Positions 1,856 to 30,004 of a stretch of 30,004 nucleotides of DNA are shown here, one piece after another (position 1 is the first letter of the stretch; every line of letters begins with the position of its first letter). The stretch spans positions 1 through 30,004 of IMG/VR virus record IMGVR_UViG_3300046167_000415; one strand, given 5' to 3'. Under the pieces are notes generated by a model. It was not told the DNA's origin. It did not search any database and saw only the letters and a list, made by a program, of their open reading frames with translations. The translations under genes were made by a program, and so were the position numbers. The stretch is from a virus.

Positions 1856-2256
1856 AATTCTTTAGGTACATGGTAGAACACATCTACACAATCACGGCTA
1901 ACCACATAGCGCTCTTGCTTGTATTCAGGCTTATATATTACTGATGAGCTACACAATACAATAGATTCTGTTGCACTGCAAATGATACAATAATAGAAAG
2001 GCCACTCAGCCCATTTCTTTTTGCGGCCGAGAAAGCTAACAGCCTCAGACTTGTAGTCATCCTCACACGTCCACACGTGCCTTGTACTGACCTCTACTTC
2101 CCATAGATATAGTTTGCCTTTATAATCACTATACAGGTCTATACCGTATTTATCTGGGTTGTGTACCATCGTATGTCCTTTGCTACTCAGCCAGTCAATT
2201 ATAATATCCTTGCCCCAAGCATCCCACTTATTGTATTGTTCCCAATCAAACTTCAT
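1837..2256 (-). CDS. PD-(D/E)XK nuclease-like protein
   Basis: This is a 139-residue protein. The segment YGIDLYSDYKGKLYLWEVEVS resembles a restriction-endonuclease fold core, with an aspartate in strand two (GIDL, near residue 39) and EVE in strand three (near 53-55). The usual lysine of ExK is replaced by a second glutamate, so activity is uncertain; ExE and ExQ variants exist in the superfamily. The C-terminal half is rich in Cys and aromatic residues and is unfamiliar. It overlaps the HNH gene by 4 bases, so both are probably co-translated in the early operon. Confidence 0.55.
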   Translation of the reverse strand: MKFDWEQYNKWDAWGKDIIIDWLSSKGHTMVHNPDKYGIDLYSDYKGKLYLWEVEVSTRHVWTCEDDYKSEAVSFLGRKKKWAEWPFYYCIICSATESIVLCSSSVIYKPEYKQERYVVSRDCVDVFYHVPKELCRWER

Positions 2257-2540
2257 AGGTGTGCCTCCTTCCCACTCTTAATGTTATGGCATTTGTGGCA
2301 CATCGTCTGTAGGTTTGCCATATCAAATGGTTCACCACCCATACGAATAGGTGTGATGTGGTCAACGACTTGACCCGGCGCATTACACTCAACACACAAA
2401 GGTTGTTGCCTTATATGTATAAGCCTAAGCTTACGCCATTGCGCTGTACCATATATCTTATTGCGTGCCACACGGGCCTTACTACTCTTGTGGCTGCCTT
2501 GAAGCCAAGGTCTTTGCTTACGTGTTGGCTTGCTAGGCAT
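2253..2540 (-). CDS. HNH endonuclease
   Basis: The 95-residue protein begins MPSKPTRKQRPW. It has the HNH/zinc layout: a first Cys pair (CVEC), the DHI motif in VVDHITPIRMGG, NLQTMC and a second Cys pair (CHKC) followed by HNIKSG. HNH proteins next to terminase genes are common in HK97-type phages, where they help TerL make specific cuts; here the gene lies two genes upstream of terS. I chose the ATG at 2540 because it overlaps the preceding stop by 8 bases. An in-frame extension to 2576 has no support. The role in packaging is inferred from location. Confidence 0.88.
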   Translation of the reverse strand: MPSKPTRKQRPWLQGSHKSSKARVARNKIYGTAQWRKLRLIHIRQQPLCVECNAPGQVVDHITPIRMGGEPFDMANLQTMCHKCHNIKSGKEAHL

Positions 2541-2676
2541 AAAGCTCACACGTTTGACATATAGGCTCCGAATCAATTAAAGCATAGTTGTCTGTTGATG
2601 TACCGCACTGTGCGCAGTATTCTGTGTCCGTAGTCCACGGGTTGCCATCATCAAGGTAGCTGTCGGGAAATCTCAT
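2533..2676 (-). CDS. 47-residue zinc-ribbon protein
   Basis: This short gene begins MRFPDSYLDDGNPW. It carries two Cys pairs, CAQC at residues 21-24 and CQTC at 40-43, spaced as in a small zinc ribbon. It is joined to its neighbours by overlaps: ATGA with the gene upstream and 8 bases with the HNH gene downstream, which is strong evidence that it is translated. Function is unknown. It might bind nucleic acid or partner the adjacent HNH nuclease, but that is inference from position. Confidence 0.75.
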   Translation of the reverse strand: MRFPDSYLDDGNPWTTDTEYCAQCGTSTDNYALIDSEPICQTCELYA

Positions 2677-3201: not shown

Positions 3202-5167
3202 AACTCTATTTGCGGTTCATTATCGTTAGGGCCTAGCGCTGCAATCTTAGGTCGTTTACCTTCCCAGTGTATCACGCTCGCATCTTCCATGAGTGCTAAT
3301 ACTTTCTCAGCATCTTTCTTTTTGCAGTCCTCAGTGTCACGTATGAAGGCCTGCAGCATCTCCTTTACTCTTACCTAATATCTTGGCGGCAATGCGTTGC
3401 TGGTCTTCGTCTGTCCATACTCTGGTCTTGTTGTAGAACTCGTCCTCTTCAAGTTCAGAGAACTGCACAAGGTCAAAGCCTCCTATCGTCATCTCCAGGC
3501 TTGGTGGTTCTATATTCCTAGTGTACTCAGGTACAATCTCAGTGATGTCTTTATTGTGTTCGCTCTTCTTAGCACTGAGTGTTGTTTCTGCCTTCTGTAC
3601 CAAATAAGCCCCGAGATGCCCTTTAGCGTTCCTGTCGTGCTTGTTCTCGTGCAGTACAACAGTGATGTGGCAATTGTATTCTGCAGTCCATTTAAGGAGC
3701 TTAGAGGCAATCATAGTGGCTTCCTCTTCATCGTTAACGCCCTTAGATGCTATATCAGCAATGCCGTCAATAATCATAAACCCTATATCAGGTTCGGTCT
3801 TAAATAAGTAGTCAATAGCTGCTAGGCGCTGTGCGTTTGTGTCCACAGCTCTGAACTTAAGGTACTCGAAATTTTCGTAGTTCTGTTCAGGCTGTAGTGA
3901 TGCCATTTCTTGCACGCGGCGCTTAGCCTTGGCTGCATGGAAATTGCCTTGCTCTGTGTCAATATAGAATACTTTACGGCCGTCAATGTAGCCTCTGAAG
4001 TGGTCACATACCATTTCATTTGATACTGCGGCAGCAGCGATTGTACTGAGGAAGTAGCTCTTGCGGCTCTTAGCCTTACCTTGAACCAAGCTAAAATTAC
4101 CGAGGGAGCCAAAGATGTACGTGTTTTGACCGAAAACCATCTCAATAGCCTTAGGAGGTTGGGAGACCTTAACAGTTGAGTCAACACGAAGGCGTTGAAT
4201 AAGTGCCGCCATTTCTTCTTGTACTTCATCATCTTCTAAGTCTATATTAAAGTCATTCGTAGTATTAAGCTCATAGCGCTTGCCATAGCCTTGTTCTCTT
4301 ATATCTGCAATACTTTGATCAAAACTACCACCGTGTTCAAGTAAGGTATAACACTGGAAGCCGTCATAAGGCATTTCAGCTTCGAATTCACTGCTTGTTG
4401 TCCAAGGCCAAAACAGCTCAGTGTCTTTAAATATCACACCACTTGTTTTGCTATCTGTTGAACCAGGACGCAATAAGTATATGTATTTACTGCTTTCTCC
4501 TACAATAGACCATCCATACCTTTGAATTATATCTAAAGCCGTGTGTGTTGCTCTAAACTCACCCCACGGCGTTTGGTCTTGCGTTTGAATGTCACCGATG
4601 CGCTTGCTTTCAACAACCTACTTCCTTCTGCATCTCATCCATTGTACGAGCTACCCGGAAGATAACATCACGCTCCACGGGGCTGATTCGCTTGACGTTA
4701 GTTATCTTCCCGAGTATCTTATACCCTTTGCTCGGATAGGTAACGATTTGGCCACCTCGGCCTCTCGTTTCAAAGGTTACCTCACCATCTATATTACGAG
4801 CAAATTTCTGGTTGCCTTCAATCTCATCGCATTTAAATATCCAATGAAAGCCACCGCCTCGAGTAGTTTGTATAATCATCTTATCCTTAAGACCAGGCGC
4901 TTCTTCTTCAAGTCTATTACAAAAGACCTCGTATTCTTCACCTCTAAAGTGCTTAGCATCGATATCAAGGCATTGAATACCATCGAATCCCATCACGAGA
5001 CCTATGCTATTTGTATTTTGAAAGAGGCTCTCAGCTTCTTTAAGTCCCATTGGCTCATCTCCATATTGCTGCCAGTTTCTAATACTAGGGCGCTTCTCCC
5101 CATCAATAAGAGGGATAGGACTAAAGCCATGGGCAAGGTATTTCTTAGCTATTGTTGTTGTGTTCAT
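3198..5167 (-). CDS. Primase-polymerase/helicase fusion (two frameshifts in this sequence)
   Basis: The protein should prime and unwind DNA at the phage fork. The N-terminal prim-pol domain has LDID (residues 67-70) and GGFHWIF (around 105-111), typical of the bifunctional primase/polymerase family. The C-terminal part is a RecA-like ATPase with a Walker A-like QGKAKSRKS near residue 362 and Walker B-like FMIIDG near 462, then a winged-helix-like tail. Two one-base insertions break it: in CC at 4617-4618 (premature stop at 4610) and in CC at 3362-3363 (premature stop at 3337). Removing them gives one 655-residue protein whose stop overlaps the next ATG. The bridging part (QTPWGEFRATHTALDIIQRY) is also conserved-looking, which supports a single gene. 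Confidence 0.88.
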
Positions 5168-5523
5168 TTAATTCGTTTCCAGTTGTTGAGCTGTTGTGTG
5201 TGTCTCTTAGGGTTCATTGTTATGGTGCGGCGGTTGTTCAGCTCTCCCTTGCTGAAGATGTAAAACTGATGCTGTACCCTATCGTGCAGTATAATGTAGT
5301 CGACCTCAGCGTAGTAGTTGAAATCAGCTTTTATGACCGTGTGCTGGTTGTCGGCGAATGTTCCGCTTTTCACTTGCACCGTCCTTACCTTTGCATCTTT
5401 ATAGATAATAAGATCAAACGGGTTTTGATGTGTAAAGGGGAAAGCCACAGCCCAGCCGTGCTCTAATAATAGAGCAGCTACTTGCAGTTCAGATATTGCC
5501 CCATCAGTTATGTGTGAATTCAT
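5164..5523 (-). CDS. PD-(D/E)XK endonuclease-like protein
   Basis: This 119-residue protein has the layout of the small PD-(D/E)XK family resembling group I intron endonucleases: an N-terminal helix GAISELQVAALLLEHGW with a catalytic-type Glu, then PFDLIIY (Asp) and VRTVQVKSG (QxK in place of ExK). It probably cuts or processes DNA branches. It overlaps the primase by 4 bases and VRR-NUC by 20 bases, so two nucleases sit immediately upstream of the replicative helicase. Its true substrate cannot be told from sequence. Confidence 0.75.
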   Translation of the reverse strand: MNSHITDGAISELQVAALLLEHGWAVAFPFTHQNPFDLIIYKDAKVRTVQVKSGTFADNQHTVIKADFNYYAEVDYIILHDRVQHQFYIFSKGELNNRRTITMNPKRHTQQLNNWKRIK

Positions 5524-5869
5524 TGATTTTGCTTAGGTAGTCATCGTATGATTTCGCAATAAAGTACACACCGCCGGCGGCATTGATTTCTTTCTCTATA
5601 AGTTTTTGGTCAGCGCTTTGGCGGTCTTTACCAATCTTCACCTCTATACCTATGAATCGGCCATTGATAATGCCAATGATATCAGGCACGCCTTTCTTTT
5701 GTACTCCCGCGCGATAAACGCCTCGCTTCTTATCATAGACCGCACCATTGTTAATGCGGTAGGCTACACCCTCTCGGACGTGGTACATATCCCAAATGAT
5801 AGTTTTTGTGAGTTCATTAGCTGTAGTGTCCTTAAAGCGCTTCTTAACTAAAGCAAAAGGGCGGTACAT
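5504..5869 (-). CDS. VRR-NUC domain nuclease
   Basis: This 121-residue protein is a stand-alone VRR-NUC nuclease. It has GVPDIIG (Asp near residue 63) and FIGIEVKIGKDRQSADQ (Glu76, Lys78, Gln84), the signature of the family, which includes structure-specific nucleases in phages and FAN1. An N-terminal helical Glu (NEL, residue 19) may complete the site. The ATG forms a TGATG overlap with the preceding micro-gene. Phage VRR-NUC proteins are thought to process branched replication or recombination intermediates; that role here is inferred. Confidence 0.88.
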   Translation of the reverse strand: MYRPFALVKKRFKDTTANELTKTIIWDMYHVREGVAYRINNGAVYDKKRGVYRAGVQKKGVPDIIGIINGRFIGIEVKIGKDRQSADQKLIEKEINAAGGVYFIAKSYDDYLSKINEFTHN

Positions 5870-5940: not shown

Positions 5941-6058
5941 ATTGTTTTCTTACGGCGTGTTCAATCATTCTTGAGATGTGGCTGCGGTCCATTGCATTAA
6001 AGTAGACCTTAGCCTCTTCCCAGCACAGGGCTTTTAAATCATTCTCCGAGTATGCCAT
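5918..6058 (-). CDS. 46-residue hypothetical protein
   Basis: A short gene starting MAYSENDLKALCWEEAKVYF, overlapping the end of the exonuclease gene by 20 bases. It is helical, with a mixed charge pattern and no recognised family. Without it there would be a coding gap of about 170 bases in an otherwise gap-free operon. Function is unknown. Confidence 0.65.
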   Translation of the reverse strand: MAYSENDLKALCWEEAKVYFNAMDRSHISRMIEHAVRKQYADTEES

Positions 6059-6657
6059 CTTCGTGCTTCTTTAATTTATCATAAAAAGTAACATAGGCAT
6101 CAAGGGCTGCGCTTATCTCGTGCATCATATCATCGCGCAATACACGGTGAACGTGTAACTTGCAGCTCTTAAGGCGGGGGTCATAAGATACAAAATCTAA
6201 CCACTCTAGGTCCTCATTCACAACAAAGTAGTGCAGTACTTGGTATTTGTACTCGTTTGGCACCCTACCGATGCGCATATATTCAATATGCTTCTTACTG
6301 CTGGGGCACTTAATTTCAACGGCACCTTTGTACTTGCCGTCTATATTAATAAGGCCATCAGGAGATACCGCAATAAATGGGTAGTCCTTATGCACGCAGA
6401 AGCCTATCTCATCAACTATTCTGCCTGTTGTCTCTTCATATACTCTAATGGCTTCAGGCTCATAGAGGATGCCGTGGCGCATTGCATCAGAAGTAAACCC
6501 CTCGGGGATAATACCTGTGAGGCGCTCTGCGATAAGCTCATCAATAAAGGGGAGGTTGTTTTTAGAGAACACGCTCTTTGCTCTCGATCCAGTAATCACT
6601 CCGAGGCGTGCCTCGAAACCATTCCTTACTGCGTTGCTGTAGTTCTAGTATCTTCAT
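6039..6657 (-). CDS. YqaJ/lambda-exonuclease-like recombinase nuclease (frameshifted)
   Basis: This is a DNA exonuclease of the YqaJ family, expected to resect double-stranded ends for recombination. The start MKILELQQRSKEW at 6657 overlaps the upstream stop (TGATG). One extra base in AAA at 6616-6618 breaks the frame after KEW; removing it gives KEWFEARLGVITGSRAK, the exact family N-terminus. Later motifs are HGILYEPEA, SPDGLI (Asp), AVEIKCPSS (ExK) and YKYQVLHY (Gln). The restored length is 205 residues. No annealing protein is recognisable nearby, although the SSB at 7869-8402 could partner it. The break lies next to the palindrome cgaggcgtgcctcg (6602-6615). Confidence 0.9.
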
Positions 6658-6836
6658 CAGTCTTGTTCTATTCCGTTCTCCTTAAGGTCGCGGTTGTTTA
6701 GTGCAATGATGCTGTTGCGGTTTATCTCCTTGGCTTTCTCTACCAATTCATTGACGGTGCCCATTGCATACCCCATCATTTTATCGAATGCTTCGTGGCT
6801 TTCTTTACTCATCTTTTTTAGTATCTCTATATTCAT
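6657..6836 (-). CDS. Hypothetical small helical protein
   Basis: About 59 residues from the ATG at 6836, or 51 from the ATG at 6812, which overlaps the upstream stop by 8 bases in the style usual here. The protein is helical (SHEAFDKMMGYAMGTVNELV) and ends GIEQD; its stop overlaps the exonuclease start. No family is recognised. The start is undecided between the two ATGs. Confidence 0.6.
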   Translation of the reverse strand: MNIEILKKMSKESHEAFDKMMGYAMGTVNELVEKAKEINRNSIIALNNRDLKENGIEQD

Positions 6837-7435: not shown

Positions 7436-7867
7436 TTACCCTCTAAAGCCTTTGCCTTTTTTTTCCGCTTCATTCCTTAGGTGTATCTCCTGATCAATAG
7501 CGGTACGCATATCAATCTGAGTCATTGGCCTAAAGTTTTCAGTCTTCAAATATGCAGCTGCAAAATCATAGACATCACCATAAAATCTATAGGCTACCAT
7601 TCTTTTTGCAGGGTCAGGATGGTACCGCCACTTGTGTTGTTTTATGGCGTGAATCACCGTGCAATGGCTCATAGGCTGAAAAACTATCGTACCCTCAACG
7701 CGCCTCTTAAATTTAAATATATTCCCAATCTGCTGCATTGAATATATTGGTCTCAAGGCAACCATGATTGCCATTCGAGCATCAACGATGTCCCTACGCC
7801 TTGAGCGTAGGGACGTGTCGATTCCAAAGTTTTCATGCACTGCTTTTAGTATCTCGTGCTGGTGCAT
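7436..7867 (-). CDS. DnaA domain IV-like DNA-binding protein
   Basis: This 143-residue protein contains RSRRRDIVDARMAIMVALRP, then MQQIGNIF and SHCTVIHAIKQH, which matches the layout of the DnaA C-terminal DNA-binding domain: an RRR..VxAR helix, a GxxF helix and a D/SHxTVxHA signature helix. The ATPase domain is absent. Relative to DnaA there is an insertion of about 13 residues (KRRVEGTIVFQPM) between the helices. Stand-alone DnaA-IV-like proteins occur in phages and could mark an origin or regulate genes. It sits between the SSB and other replication genes. A perfect palindrome (7790-7814) lies inside the coding region. Confidence 0.75.
   Translation of the reverse strand: MHQHEILKAVHENFGIDTSLRSRRRDIVDARMAIMVALRPIYSMQQIGNIFKFKRRVEGTIVFQPMSHCTVIHAIKQHKWRYHPDPAKRMVAYRFYGDVYDFAAAYLKTENFRPMTQIDMRTAIDQEIHLRNEAEKKGKGFRG
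7790..7814. repeat. Perfect 10-bp inverted repeat with 5-base loop
   Basis: GTCCCTACGC and GCGTAGGGAC flank a CTTGA loop. The repeat lies within the codons for the SLRSRRRD segment of the DnaA-like protein. Being GC-rich in AT-rich surroundings it would form a very stable stem in RNA or a symmetric protein-binding site in DNA. It could be a target of the encoded DNA-binding protein, an mRNA hairpin or chance. Confidence 0.9.
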
Positions 7868-8467: not shown

Positions 8468-8767
8468 TTAGTCTTTTATGAATGTGCCGTTCTGCATCTT
8501 GCCTTTACGCTTAGCAATAACGCTGTAGGCTTCATTGATACACTCCTCAACATTAACGCCTGCGAAATAAGCTACGCTTGTTAAAACAACAATGCTATCG
8601 CCTATGGCGTCTATAATTTCTTCAGTGTCTTCATTAAGCACTGCTTTAGCAAGCTCACCAGCTTCTTCATAGAATTTGATGGTTTGCGTTTTAAGGTCAC
8701 CCTTTTCATAAATGCCTTTTTCACGAGCCCAAGTTCTGATAGGGCTAAACTCATTTGATAGTTTCAT
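8468..8767 (-). CDS. MazG-like nucleotide pyrophosphohydrolase
   Basis: This 99-residue all-alpha protein has the MazG/dCTPase-type metal site: FYEEAGELAKAVL (ExxE, residues 29-41) and IIDAIGDSIVVLTSVAYFAG (ExxD-like, with Glu and Asp ligands). Members hydrolyse NTPs or dNTPs to the monophosphate and pyrophosphate; human DCTPP1, which acts on dCTP and modified dCTP, is a relative. The gene overlaps the upstream thymidylate-synthase homologue by 4 bases (ATGA). Together they could turn dCTP into dCMP and then a modified dCMP, but substrate choice cannot be read from sequence and other house-cleaning roles are possible. Confidence 0.85.
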   Translation of the reverse strand: MKLSNEFSPIRTWAREKGIYEKGDLKTQTIKFYEEAGELAKAVLNEDTEEIIDAIGDSIVVLTSVAYFAGVNVEECINEAYSVIAKRKGKMQNGTFIKD

Positions 8768-9519
8768 AAAATTAATTTTGCTTTGATATAAGGACCTTGA
8801 CCGTCCATCTTGATTTCTACACCGCCTACTGCAGCGGCATCATTAATAATAAGGCTGCTGTTGTAGTGCTCGCCTTCTACATATTCAAGCACTGCATCTC
8901 TGTGCTCATTGTAAACGTGCACATTTATAAAGTGGTAAATGATATTGAATACTTCAAGACCTAACTGGTCAGCGATGTACTTAAGAAGTAAATATCCTAC
9001 GAGTGCATCGTAAGGAAATCCAAGGAACAGGTCAGAGCTTCTAAAGGTCATAACCATTTGCAATGCACCACCTCGTTTAATAAAATCAAACTCAGTATAG
9101 CAGCAAGGTATTTTTTGGTCTTCTAAATCTCGCGGCTGCCATAGGCTGATTCTAGCGCGCCGAGATGTATAAGGCTTGCGTAATTCACTTAACACGTATT
9201 CTATTTGGTCAGGATTGCTGCGAAGCTGGTAACCATAGCTTTTTGCTACGTGCCCATCTTCTGCATAGTCGTCCCACCATTTTATATTGTGCTCGTGTAA
9301 GAACTCAATATCAGTGCGGCCCTCAAGCATCCAAACCCACTCAGCTAGTGCCTTATCGTAGAATACTTTTTTACCTGTTATAATAGGCGGGTCGTAACGA
9401 TTTGCACGCAGGCTCATATTTATTTGAGCCATTGTATTTCCGTTGCGCGTAGGCAACTGCTCACCTCCGTGAATTACGGATTGCAGGAGGCTCTTATAGT
9501 TGTCTTCAAACTTATTCAT
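8764..9519 (-). CDS. Thymidylate synthase family; probable dCMP hydroxymethylase or related dCMP-modifying enzyme
   Basis: A 251-residue member of the thymidylate synthase fold. Catalytic Cys140 is in IPCCYTEF, Arg160-Ser161-Ser162-Asp163 form the phosphate motif exactly 20 residues later, as in ThyA, and the conserved His201-x-Tyr203 (HVY) is present. The position of E. coli ThyA Asn177, in the motif GLPFN, is here Asp171 (GFPYD). Asn selects dUMP; Asp at this site is the hallmark of dCMP hydroxymethylases such as T4 gp42. The adjacent His147 of ThyA is Tyr141 here. I chose MNKFEDNYKS at 9519, overlapping the upstream stop by 8 bases. The dCMP preference is inferred, and whether the product is hydroxymethyl- or methyl-dCMP is open. 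Confidence 0.85.
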   Translation of the reverse strand: MNKFEDNYKSLLQSVIHGGEQLPTRNGNTMAQINMSLRANRYDPPIITGKKVFYDKALAEWVWMLEGRTDIEFLHEHNIKWWDDYAEDGHVAKSYGYQLRSNPDQIEYVLSELRKPYTSRRARISLWQPRDLEDQKIPCCYTEFDFIKRGGALQMVMTFRSSDLFLGFPYDALVGYLLLKYIADQLGLEVFNIIYHFINVHVYNEHRDAVLEYVEGEHYNSSLIINDAAAVGGVEIKMDGQGPYIKAKLIL

Positions 9520-9784
9520 TGCCGTGCTTTTTATTGTATTCGTCAAGTGCTGAGATGTAAGCAACTGCATCAAGCATAGTATCCTCTTTCATATTGTAGG
9601 CCATACGGCTTATTTTAAGAGCCACCATGCACTTATAAAAATCTTCTGGTGTTATCTGCTTATTACATAATTCAGATGCGACACGCGCGGCCTTAGTCAT
9701 TGATTCATCGAAAGGACCGTATTGCCTTTCTTTTTCCTCACTTCGATCGTGAGCGATGTTGTGCGCTTTCAGTAGTATGCTCAT
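9512..9784 (-). CDS. DUF6378-like protein
   Basis: A 90-residue helical protein resembling the phage domain DUF6378: an early ERQYGPFDESM (the YG..n motif), a middle PEDFYKCMVALKISRMAYN and a final Asp-containing DTMLDAVAYISALDEYNK. The pattern of acidic residues across helices recalls MazG-like all-alpha folds. Function is unknown; its position before the nucleotide-metabolism genes hints at a role in nucleotide handling. It overlaps the thymidylate-synthase homologue by 8 bases. Confidence 0.7.
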   Translation of the reverse strand: MSILLKAHNIAHDRSEEKERQYGPFDESMTKAARVASELCNKQITPEDFYKCMVALKISRMAYNMKEDTMLDAVAYISALDEYNKKHGNE

Positions 9785-29562: not shown

Positions 29563-30004
29563 TTATAAAAACCTTAAACCTTGAGATTCATAGGTGCTCA
29601 CCTTGCTCACATCTGAGTTTTCCACGGTCATCTTTTCACCCAGGGCCATAATCATTGCAACAATACCGTCAATCTTATCTCCAGCTTTTGCTTTAGAGAA
29701 TTTTACGTTCTCAGCGTCATCTCGCTTGACTACTACATTCCCGACCATCCAGCGAAGCATCGAATGACCGCCGTGATGCAATAGCTTTTTCTTAATCAAT
29801 ACCTCAGCATTCTTGATTGGGCTCGTCATAGAAATAAACCCTTGACCAAACGGGTCCATCTCAATACCTTCATCCATTAACTGCTGCACCAATGAATTAG
29901 AGTTCCACCTATCAAAAGCTACACTCTGAATATCAAATAACTCAGCAGCTTCAAATATCTTTCTTTTAATTGTTGCATAGTCAGTCGAATTTCCGTTCGT
30001 GACT
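29563..30004 (-). CDS. terL: Terminase large subunit, C-terminal part (continues from position 1)
   Basis: This frame is open from 30004 and reads VTNGNSTDYATIKRKIFEAA, then VAFDRWNSNSLVQQLMDEG and late KAGDKIDGIVAMIMALGEKM, the nuclease-domain C-terminus of TerL with aspartates in AFDRW and KIDG. The codon across the junction (bases 2, 1, 30004) is ATA, and the frame matches that of the restored 5' part (SFVSKGEL|I|VTNGNST), so the gene is continuous over the window ends. The stop at 29563 is followed by a terminator. No indel is seen in this part. Confidence 0.93.
   Translation of the reverse strand, partial: VTNGNSTDYATIKRKIFEAAELFDIQSVAFDRWNSNSLVQQLMDEGIEMDPFGQGFISMTSPIKNAEVLIKKKLLHHGGHSMLRWMVGNVVVKRDDAENVKFSKAKAGDKIDGIVAMIMALGEKMTVENSDVSKVSTYESQGLRFL

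Follow-up and report, generated by a model that had tools for sequence, protein, structure and literature searches.

Modified-Cytosine Systems in Phages

In phage XP12, which belongs to Bosavirus (PMC11946847), 5-methylcytosine replaces all cytosine (PMC9206674); DLP4, also a member of Bosavirus, was used for comparison in its place in the present analysis. In the dCMP hydroxymethylase of phage T4, water is held to be activated by Asp145 (Leu143 in the E. coli enzyme), Val85 stands in the place of Trp83, and there is no C-terminal tail of the kind that thymidylate synthase (TS) needs (PMC6400193). The MetaGPA study demonstrated that positions 177 and 147 best separate the TS proteins encoded on modified-cytosine contigs, Asp177 being typical of the modified ones, and that TS co-occurs with PRA-PH on such contigs (PMC8670742). 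MazG-like enzymes have been characterized in two other settings. The cyanophage MazG prefers dGTP and dCTP (PMC6850273), and MazZ of phage S-2L converts dGTP to dGMP, thereby feeding a modified-base synthase in a system for which three phage genes suffice in E. coli (PMC8342488).

The tie of Asp177 and of the TS and PRA-PH pair to phage contigs with modified cytosine is already known (PMC8670742), and the locus described here is a compact version of it. The locus lies in a window of 30,004 bp, which is the whole stretch of viral DNA analyzed (IMG/VR record IMGVR_UViG_3300046167_000415), and its features are collected in Table 1. The occurrence of the same gene pair in many environmental phages suggests that these phages modify cytosine, most likely to 5-methylcytosine, and that an unusually small number of genes lets them mask their DNA in this way.

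Table 1. Positions of the genes and active-site codons discussed in the text.
Feature	Position	Strand	Basis
TS homolog, Asp177 type, 251 aa	8764..9519	(-)	Pfam, alignment, AlphaFold model; ATG at 9519
Asp171 codon, base-reading residue (= E. coli ThyA Asn177)	9007..9009	(-)	counted from ATG at 9519
Catalytic Cys140 codon, second Cys of PCC	9100..9102	(-)	counted from ATG at 9519
MazG/PRA-PH-like all-alpha NTP pyrophosphohydrolase, 99 aa	8468..8767	(-)	Pfam, PHROGs, motif, neighborhood
DUF6378 gene, 90 aa, all-helical model	9512..9784	(-)	PF19905 5e-13
HNH gene	2253-2576		domain/family scans
PD-(D/E)XK gene	5164-5523		domain/family scans
VRR-NUC/resolvase-like ORF	5504-5869		domain/family scans
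YqaJ exonuclease	6039-6599		domain/family scans

Active Site of the TS Homolog

The TS homolog matches Thymidylat_synt in Pfam (PF00303, E 3e-47) and thymidylate synthase in PHROGs (5e-55), and its AlphaFold model (pLDDT 92.1) superimposes on E. coli TS with Z 31.4 and an rmsd of 1.8 over 247 residues, the last residue included. The Pfam match, the fold and the catalytic residues thus place it in the TS superfamily (PF00303). In the alignment, the catalytic set is intact (E60, W82, Y95, R120/R121, Cys140, R160, S161, D163, H201, and Y203), with Cys146, Arg166, Ser167, Asp169, His207, and Tyr209 of E. coli ThyA corresponding to Cys140 (in IPCCYT), Arg160, Ser161, Asp163, His201, and Tyr203, respectively. 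Because FRSSDLFLGFPYD of the homolog aligns with QRSCDVFLGLPFN of E. coli ThyA free of gaps, Asp171 (GFPYD) occupies the place of Asn177 (GLPFN), and the numbering of Cys140, Arg160, and Asp171 given in an earlier note on this DNA is correct. The protein thereby departs from canonical dUMP-methylating ThyA, which has Asn177. A second replacement that the earlier note did not report is Tyr141, in the position of E. coli His147. The homolog also falls below the NCBIfam ThyA equivalog cut-offs (best equivalog 136 bits vs 327) and narrowly misses TIGR03284 (108.3 vs 108.35). Asp171, together with Ser161 and Arg120/121, which count as deoxyribose-type according to the MilA paper (PMC5175136), constitutes the residue set of a cytosine-type TS. 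T4 hydroxymethylase and MilA were absent among the matches listed by the fold search and the PDB sequence search with the TS homolog.

Distribution of the Asp-Type Clade

A scan of viral contigs used a DNA pattern that encodes FRSSDxFLGLP[YF] and is blind to residue 177, and the 80 loci obtained gave 68 distinct readable TS proteins. All 68 carry Asp at 177, and 67 of them carry the PCC[YF] motif; Asn is found at this position in E. coli ThyA and in 65 of the aligned homologs. The 27 rows of the PCC group, hereafter clade A, come together as a single clade (SH-aLRT 99) in a TS tree with 84 rows, and the window TS is at most 46% identical to any other row. Arg126/127, Arg166, Ser167, and Asp169 (E. 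coli numbering, as for all clade A residues below) are invariant across 92 clade A sequences, and Asp177 is present in 91 of them. The exception, L003, was dropped as a counter-example since its TS gene is frameshifted exactly in the region of residue 177. Clade A further differs from E. coli ThyA by Pro145 to Cys, His147 to Tyr/Phe and, in most members, Trp83 to Phe/Tyr. Judged from these alignments, Asp171 is no stray mutation and is fixed within the clade, and the sequence observation itself is firm.

Two further Asp-type groups were recognized. Group B is a large second Asp-type lineage with PPCHY and LGLPYDIAM, whose 66 loci fall between L089 and L206 (e.g., L119 and L163); it keeps His147, and its position in the tree is closer to that of ordinary ThyA. 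Group C (L091, L114, L123, L134, L141, and L199) comprises T4-like Asp-type TS proteins with Asp143, Thr147, and RSND, which are candidate dCMP hydroxymethylases.

Two scans of bacterial genome contigs gave no relative, and the cassette had no DNA-level match among phage records. Among the 30 best phage records listed by TS, the only clear member of clade A is MedDCM-OCT-S28-C10, because the three isolated phages inspected among the nearest isolates, namely Circum (Arthrobacter), BF344P1 (Bacteroides), and RHph_N1_10 (Rhizobium), have Asn at 177 without the clade motif and were rejected as members.

MazG and DUF6378 Partner Genes

The MazG-like protein scores above the Pfam cut-offs for both PRA-PH (1.3e-5) and MazG (5.8e-5), matches the MazG-like families phrog_1992 and phrog_715 in PHROGs, and keeps the EExxE...ExxD motif as EEAGE...EIID; the domain match and the motif assign it to MazG/PRA-PH. 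By pattern, the motif is present in 81 of 86 relatives. Its ORF overlaps the TS gene by ATGA, as the earlier note had stated for these four bases. A role in the conversion of dCTP to dCMP is plausible as a prediction, the specificity of this enzyme being unreadable from its sequence. Longer proteins are encoded by 41 of the 86 clade A MazG genes (e.g., L116:1969-2715). In the L116 protein, the one scanned, an N-terminal GIY-YIG-like (MUG113/T5orf172) domain, scoring just below the Pfam cut-off, is fused to MazG; the window copy lacks this fusion.

Upstream of the TS gene, and overlapping its start by 8 bp, lies a DUF6378 gene that the earlier note did not describe (model pLDDT 84.6). The possibility that it encodes a second MazG-like enzyme was dropped: Foldseek gave no significant match for the model, and the best Z (5.7 over 46 residues, Tad1) lies within noise for helical models.

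Clustering of the ORFs around 90 clade A TS genes yielded two standing same-strand partners, the MazG-type gene and the DUF6378 gene. In TS sets assembled partly by an Asp-specific search and not by random sampling, MazG is found no farther than 3 kb from TS in 86/90 clade A genes, mostly overlapping or adjacent, and DUF6378 lies near TS in 69/90; MazG is near TS in 65/66 group B loci, there without DUF6378, and within 3 kb in 6/64 Asn-type genes, while the six group C loci have no MazG neighbor within 3 kb. In the thinned tree rows, an adjacent MazG accompanies 44 of 51 Asp-type and none of 30 Asn-type TS genes, a contrast of limited statistical weight since the few origins of Asp leave only 2-3 independent pairs in the phylogenetic test.

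In another reading, the pair would only adjust nucleotide pools, with MazG lowering dCTP or another NTP and the TS homolog, ordinary or relaxed, acting on dUMP. Such a reading could draw on the cyanophage MazG, proposed to recycle host dGTP and dCTP (PMC6850273), and on DUF6378, whose role is unassigned and which shares the overlap chain. It is nevertheless very improbable, given that Asn177 is kept in Asn-type enzymes, that clade A is fixed for Asp across approximately 34-46% identity to the window protein, and that, according to work cited in PMC8670742, an Asn-to-Asp change switches TS from dUMP to dCMP. The assignment of the window TS homolog to cytosine, which the earlier note had read from Asp171, is well supported by the conservation of this residue, by the mutagenesis and structures of others that bear on Asp as the cytosine-reading residue (PMC5175136, PMC6400193, PMC8670742), and by the co-occurrence of MazG in two separate Asp-type clades and in DLP4.

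Methyl or Hydroxymethyl Product

Residue 143 is Leu or Ile in all 92 clade A sequences, residue 83 is aromatic, and a TS-like IKAxL tail is present in nearly all full-length members. The marks of a T4-type dCMP hydroxymethylase, Asp143 and loss of the tail, are thus missing from clade A. The likely product of the window enzyme is 5-methyl-dCMP rather than 5-hydroxymethyl-dCMP, because the pocket and the C-terminal tail are TS-like, the T4 hydroxylation residue is missing, and the model aligns with E. coli TS to its last residue; the earlier note had not chosen between the two. The tail does not cleanly separate methylases from hydroxymethylases, since the TS of DLP4, whose kin make 5-methylcytosine, has no obvious tail; it has Asn at 143 and also differs at 147.

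The pair might instead make 5-hydroxymethyl-dCMP as in T4, to be incorporated as 5-hydroxymethylcytosine with or without later decoration. Clade A and T4 gp42 have Asp177 and a changed residue 147 in common, most of clade A has Phe/Tyr instead of Trp83, the residue that controls the access of solvent in E. coli TS, and a 5-hydroxymethylcytosine carbamoyltransferase is frequent on the MetaGPA contigs that have TS and PRA-PH. We regard this outcome as unlikely, in view of Leu/Ile in place of T4 Asp145, of the TS-like tail that T4 lacks, and of the T4-like combination of Asp143 and Thr147 being found in group C, which has no MazG neighbor within 3 kb in its six loci. Moreover, neither a glycosyltransferase nor a carbamoyltransferase was recognized in the window.

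Genome Completeness and Phosphorylation Steps

The ORF of the large terminase, a feature absent from the earlier note, extends past position 1 and is taken up again, with no stop, at position 30004. Because the terminase reads through both ends, the window very probably represents a complete genome that is circular or circularly permuted; an exact repeat was sought at its ends and none was found. Frameshifts affect yqaJ (at 6599-6660), the DnaA-C-type gene (at 7436-7473), and the terminase (at ~780-900), each judged against a relative or against the gene's own continuation, and the assembly may therefore contain indel errors. In close relatives, a gene for a Dam-type N6-adenine methyltransferase (PF05869) stands just before yqaJ (L001:4283-4699, L002:4865-5281); it is missing from the window at 6599-6657, where the flanks are joined cleanly at a short ATGAA repeat.

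Neither a dCMP deaminase nor a thymidylate kinase, DNMK, or cytidylate kinase was found by domain searches of the window, and family scans found no glycosyltransferase among its genes. The absence of a phage kinase and of a glycosyltransferase remarked in the earlier note is confirmed by these searches. Across the 45 other clade A records, many of them fragments, dCMP deaminase occurs in one and thymidylate kinase above the cut-off in none. The earlier note had further suggested that nucleases of the operon could attack unmodified host DNA; the recognizable ones (Table 1) resemble ordinary genes of the recombination, resolvase-like, and HNH kinds, so that this part of its interpretation is not supported, whereas its cytosine reading and its account of the missing genes are. 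Phages commonly carry such nucleases for use in recombination and packaging.

The distribution of the deaminase is relevant to a possible detour to dTTP, in which dCMP would be converted to 5-methyl-dCMP and then by dCMP deaminase to dTMP, leaving the DNA unmodified. A 1982 paper, cited in PMC11946847, deals with a thymidylate route in cells infected by XP12, and a dCMP deaminase gene adjoins the Asp-type TS gene in MedDCM-OCT-S28-C10 and DLP4. However, the deaminase domain is missing from the window and from 44 of the 45 other clade records, which include many fragments, one gene for a plain TS would achieve the same, and cytosine is replaced in XP12, a close kin of DLP4. Together these points make the detour quite unlikely.

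When three dNMP kinase families were compared, T4 scored strongly for DNMK and DLP4 scored for none. Accordingly, the absence of a kinase from the window is no objection to a 5-methylcytosine route, and a route without a phage kinase has a likely precedent. Since neither kinase, deaminase nor glycosyltransferase was recognized in a genome that looks complete, host kinases would have to finish the path. Bacterial CMP kinase is probably poor on 5-substituted dCMP, which counts against this step.

Proposed Pathway

We lean towards the reading that the TS homolog and MazG form a minimal front end for cytosine modification, most likely by way of 5-methyl-dCMP and ending in modified phage DNA. The MazG-like enzyme would clip dCTP to dCMP, which would both lower unmodified dCTP and supply substrate. 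The TS homolog would bind dCMP instead of dUMP through Asp171, and Cys140 could attack C6, whereupon a methylene group from methylene-tetrahydrofolate would be added at C5 and most likely reduced to methyl to give 5-methyl-dCMP. Host kinases may then raise 5-methyl-dCMP to 5-methyl-dCTP. On incorporation, this nucleotide would take the place of some or all cytosine in phage DNA and could shield that DNA against host restriction. The directly observed elements of this scheme are Asp171, the fixation of that residue throughout the clade, active sites that are intact, and a gene pair that is conserved. A broader proposal, tentative and rather doubtful, is that DUF6378, the Asp-type TS and MazG constitute a kinase-less cassette by which uncultured phages of ~30 kb replace cytosine with the help of host kinases, DUF6378 being a hitherto undescribed base-modification part.

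If the proposed pathway is true, two or three short genes that overlap are enough for widespread and nearly uncultured small environmental phages to make modified cytosine, and DNA cytosine replacement is extended to genomes of ~30 kb. The compact cassette could be transferable to E. coli, as done for the S-2L Z-cluster, and the way in which host kinases deal with the modified nucleotide would become a question. The combination of PCC[YF]T, FRSSDxFLGxPYD, and an overlapping MazG gene provides a sequence rule for spotting such phages.

Comparison with Known Systems

Like T4 gp42, the window enzyme belongs to the TS fold family and has Asp as the base-reading residue, the catalytic Cys, and deoxyribose-type Ser and Arg. 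In contrast, gp42 has Asp145 and Val85 and lacks the TS tail, where clade A has Leu/Ile, Phe/Tyr, and a tail; T4 also encodes the DNMK kinase and a beta-glucosyltransferase, neither of which was recognized in the window. The Z-cluster of S-2L (purZ, mazZ, and datZ) is likewise a compact set in which a MazG-like enzyme supplies a monophosphate to a modified-nucleotide synthase, but its purine chemistry and unrelated synthase make this an analogy of layout only. The nearest annotated record, the uncultured phage MedDCM-OCT-S28-C10 (AP013540), has a TS 47% identical to that of the window with PCCYT and GLPYD and an NTP pyrophosphohydrolase; it differs by a dTMP kinase and a dCMP deaminase annotated in the same block, and DUF6378 was not detected near its TS. 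MetaGPA contigs, unlike the window, often add dCMP deaminase or carbamoyltransferase, but the window TS departs from ThyA at both of the marks recognized in that study (Asp171 and Tyr141) and has a PRA-PH-type partner.

The genes of DLP4, unlike those of the window, further include DHFR, dCMP deaminase, and ribonucleotide reductase. The two TS proteins are 27% identical, that of DLP4 is ~60 residues longer, and the gene order is reversed. Its TS nevertheless reads FLRSSDLFVGLPYD and is of the Asp type, and its PRA-PH gene (3e-15) overlaps the TS gene by 4 bp. The XP12/DLP4 system thus resembles the window in Asp177 within RSSDLFxGxPYD, in the 4-bp overlap with a MazG/PRA-PH-type gene and, for DLP4, in the profile across the three dNMP kinase families.
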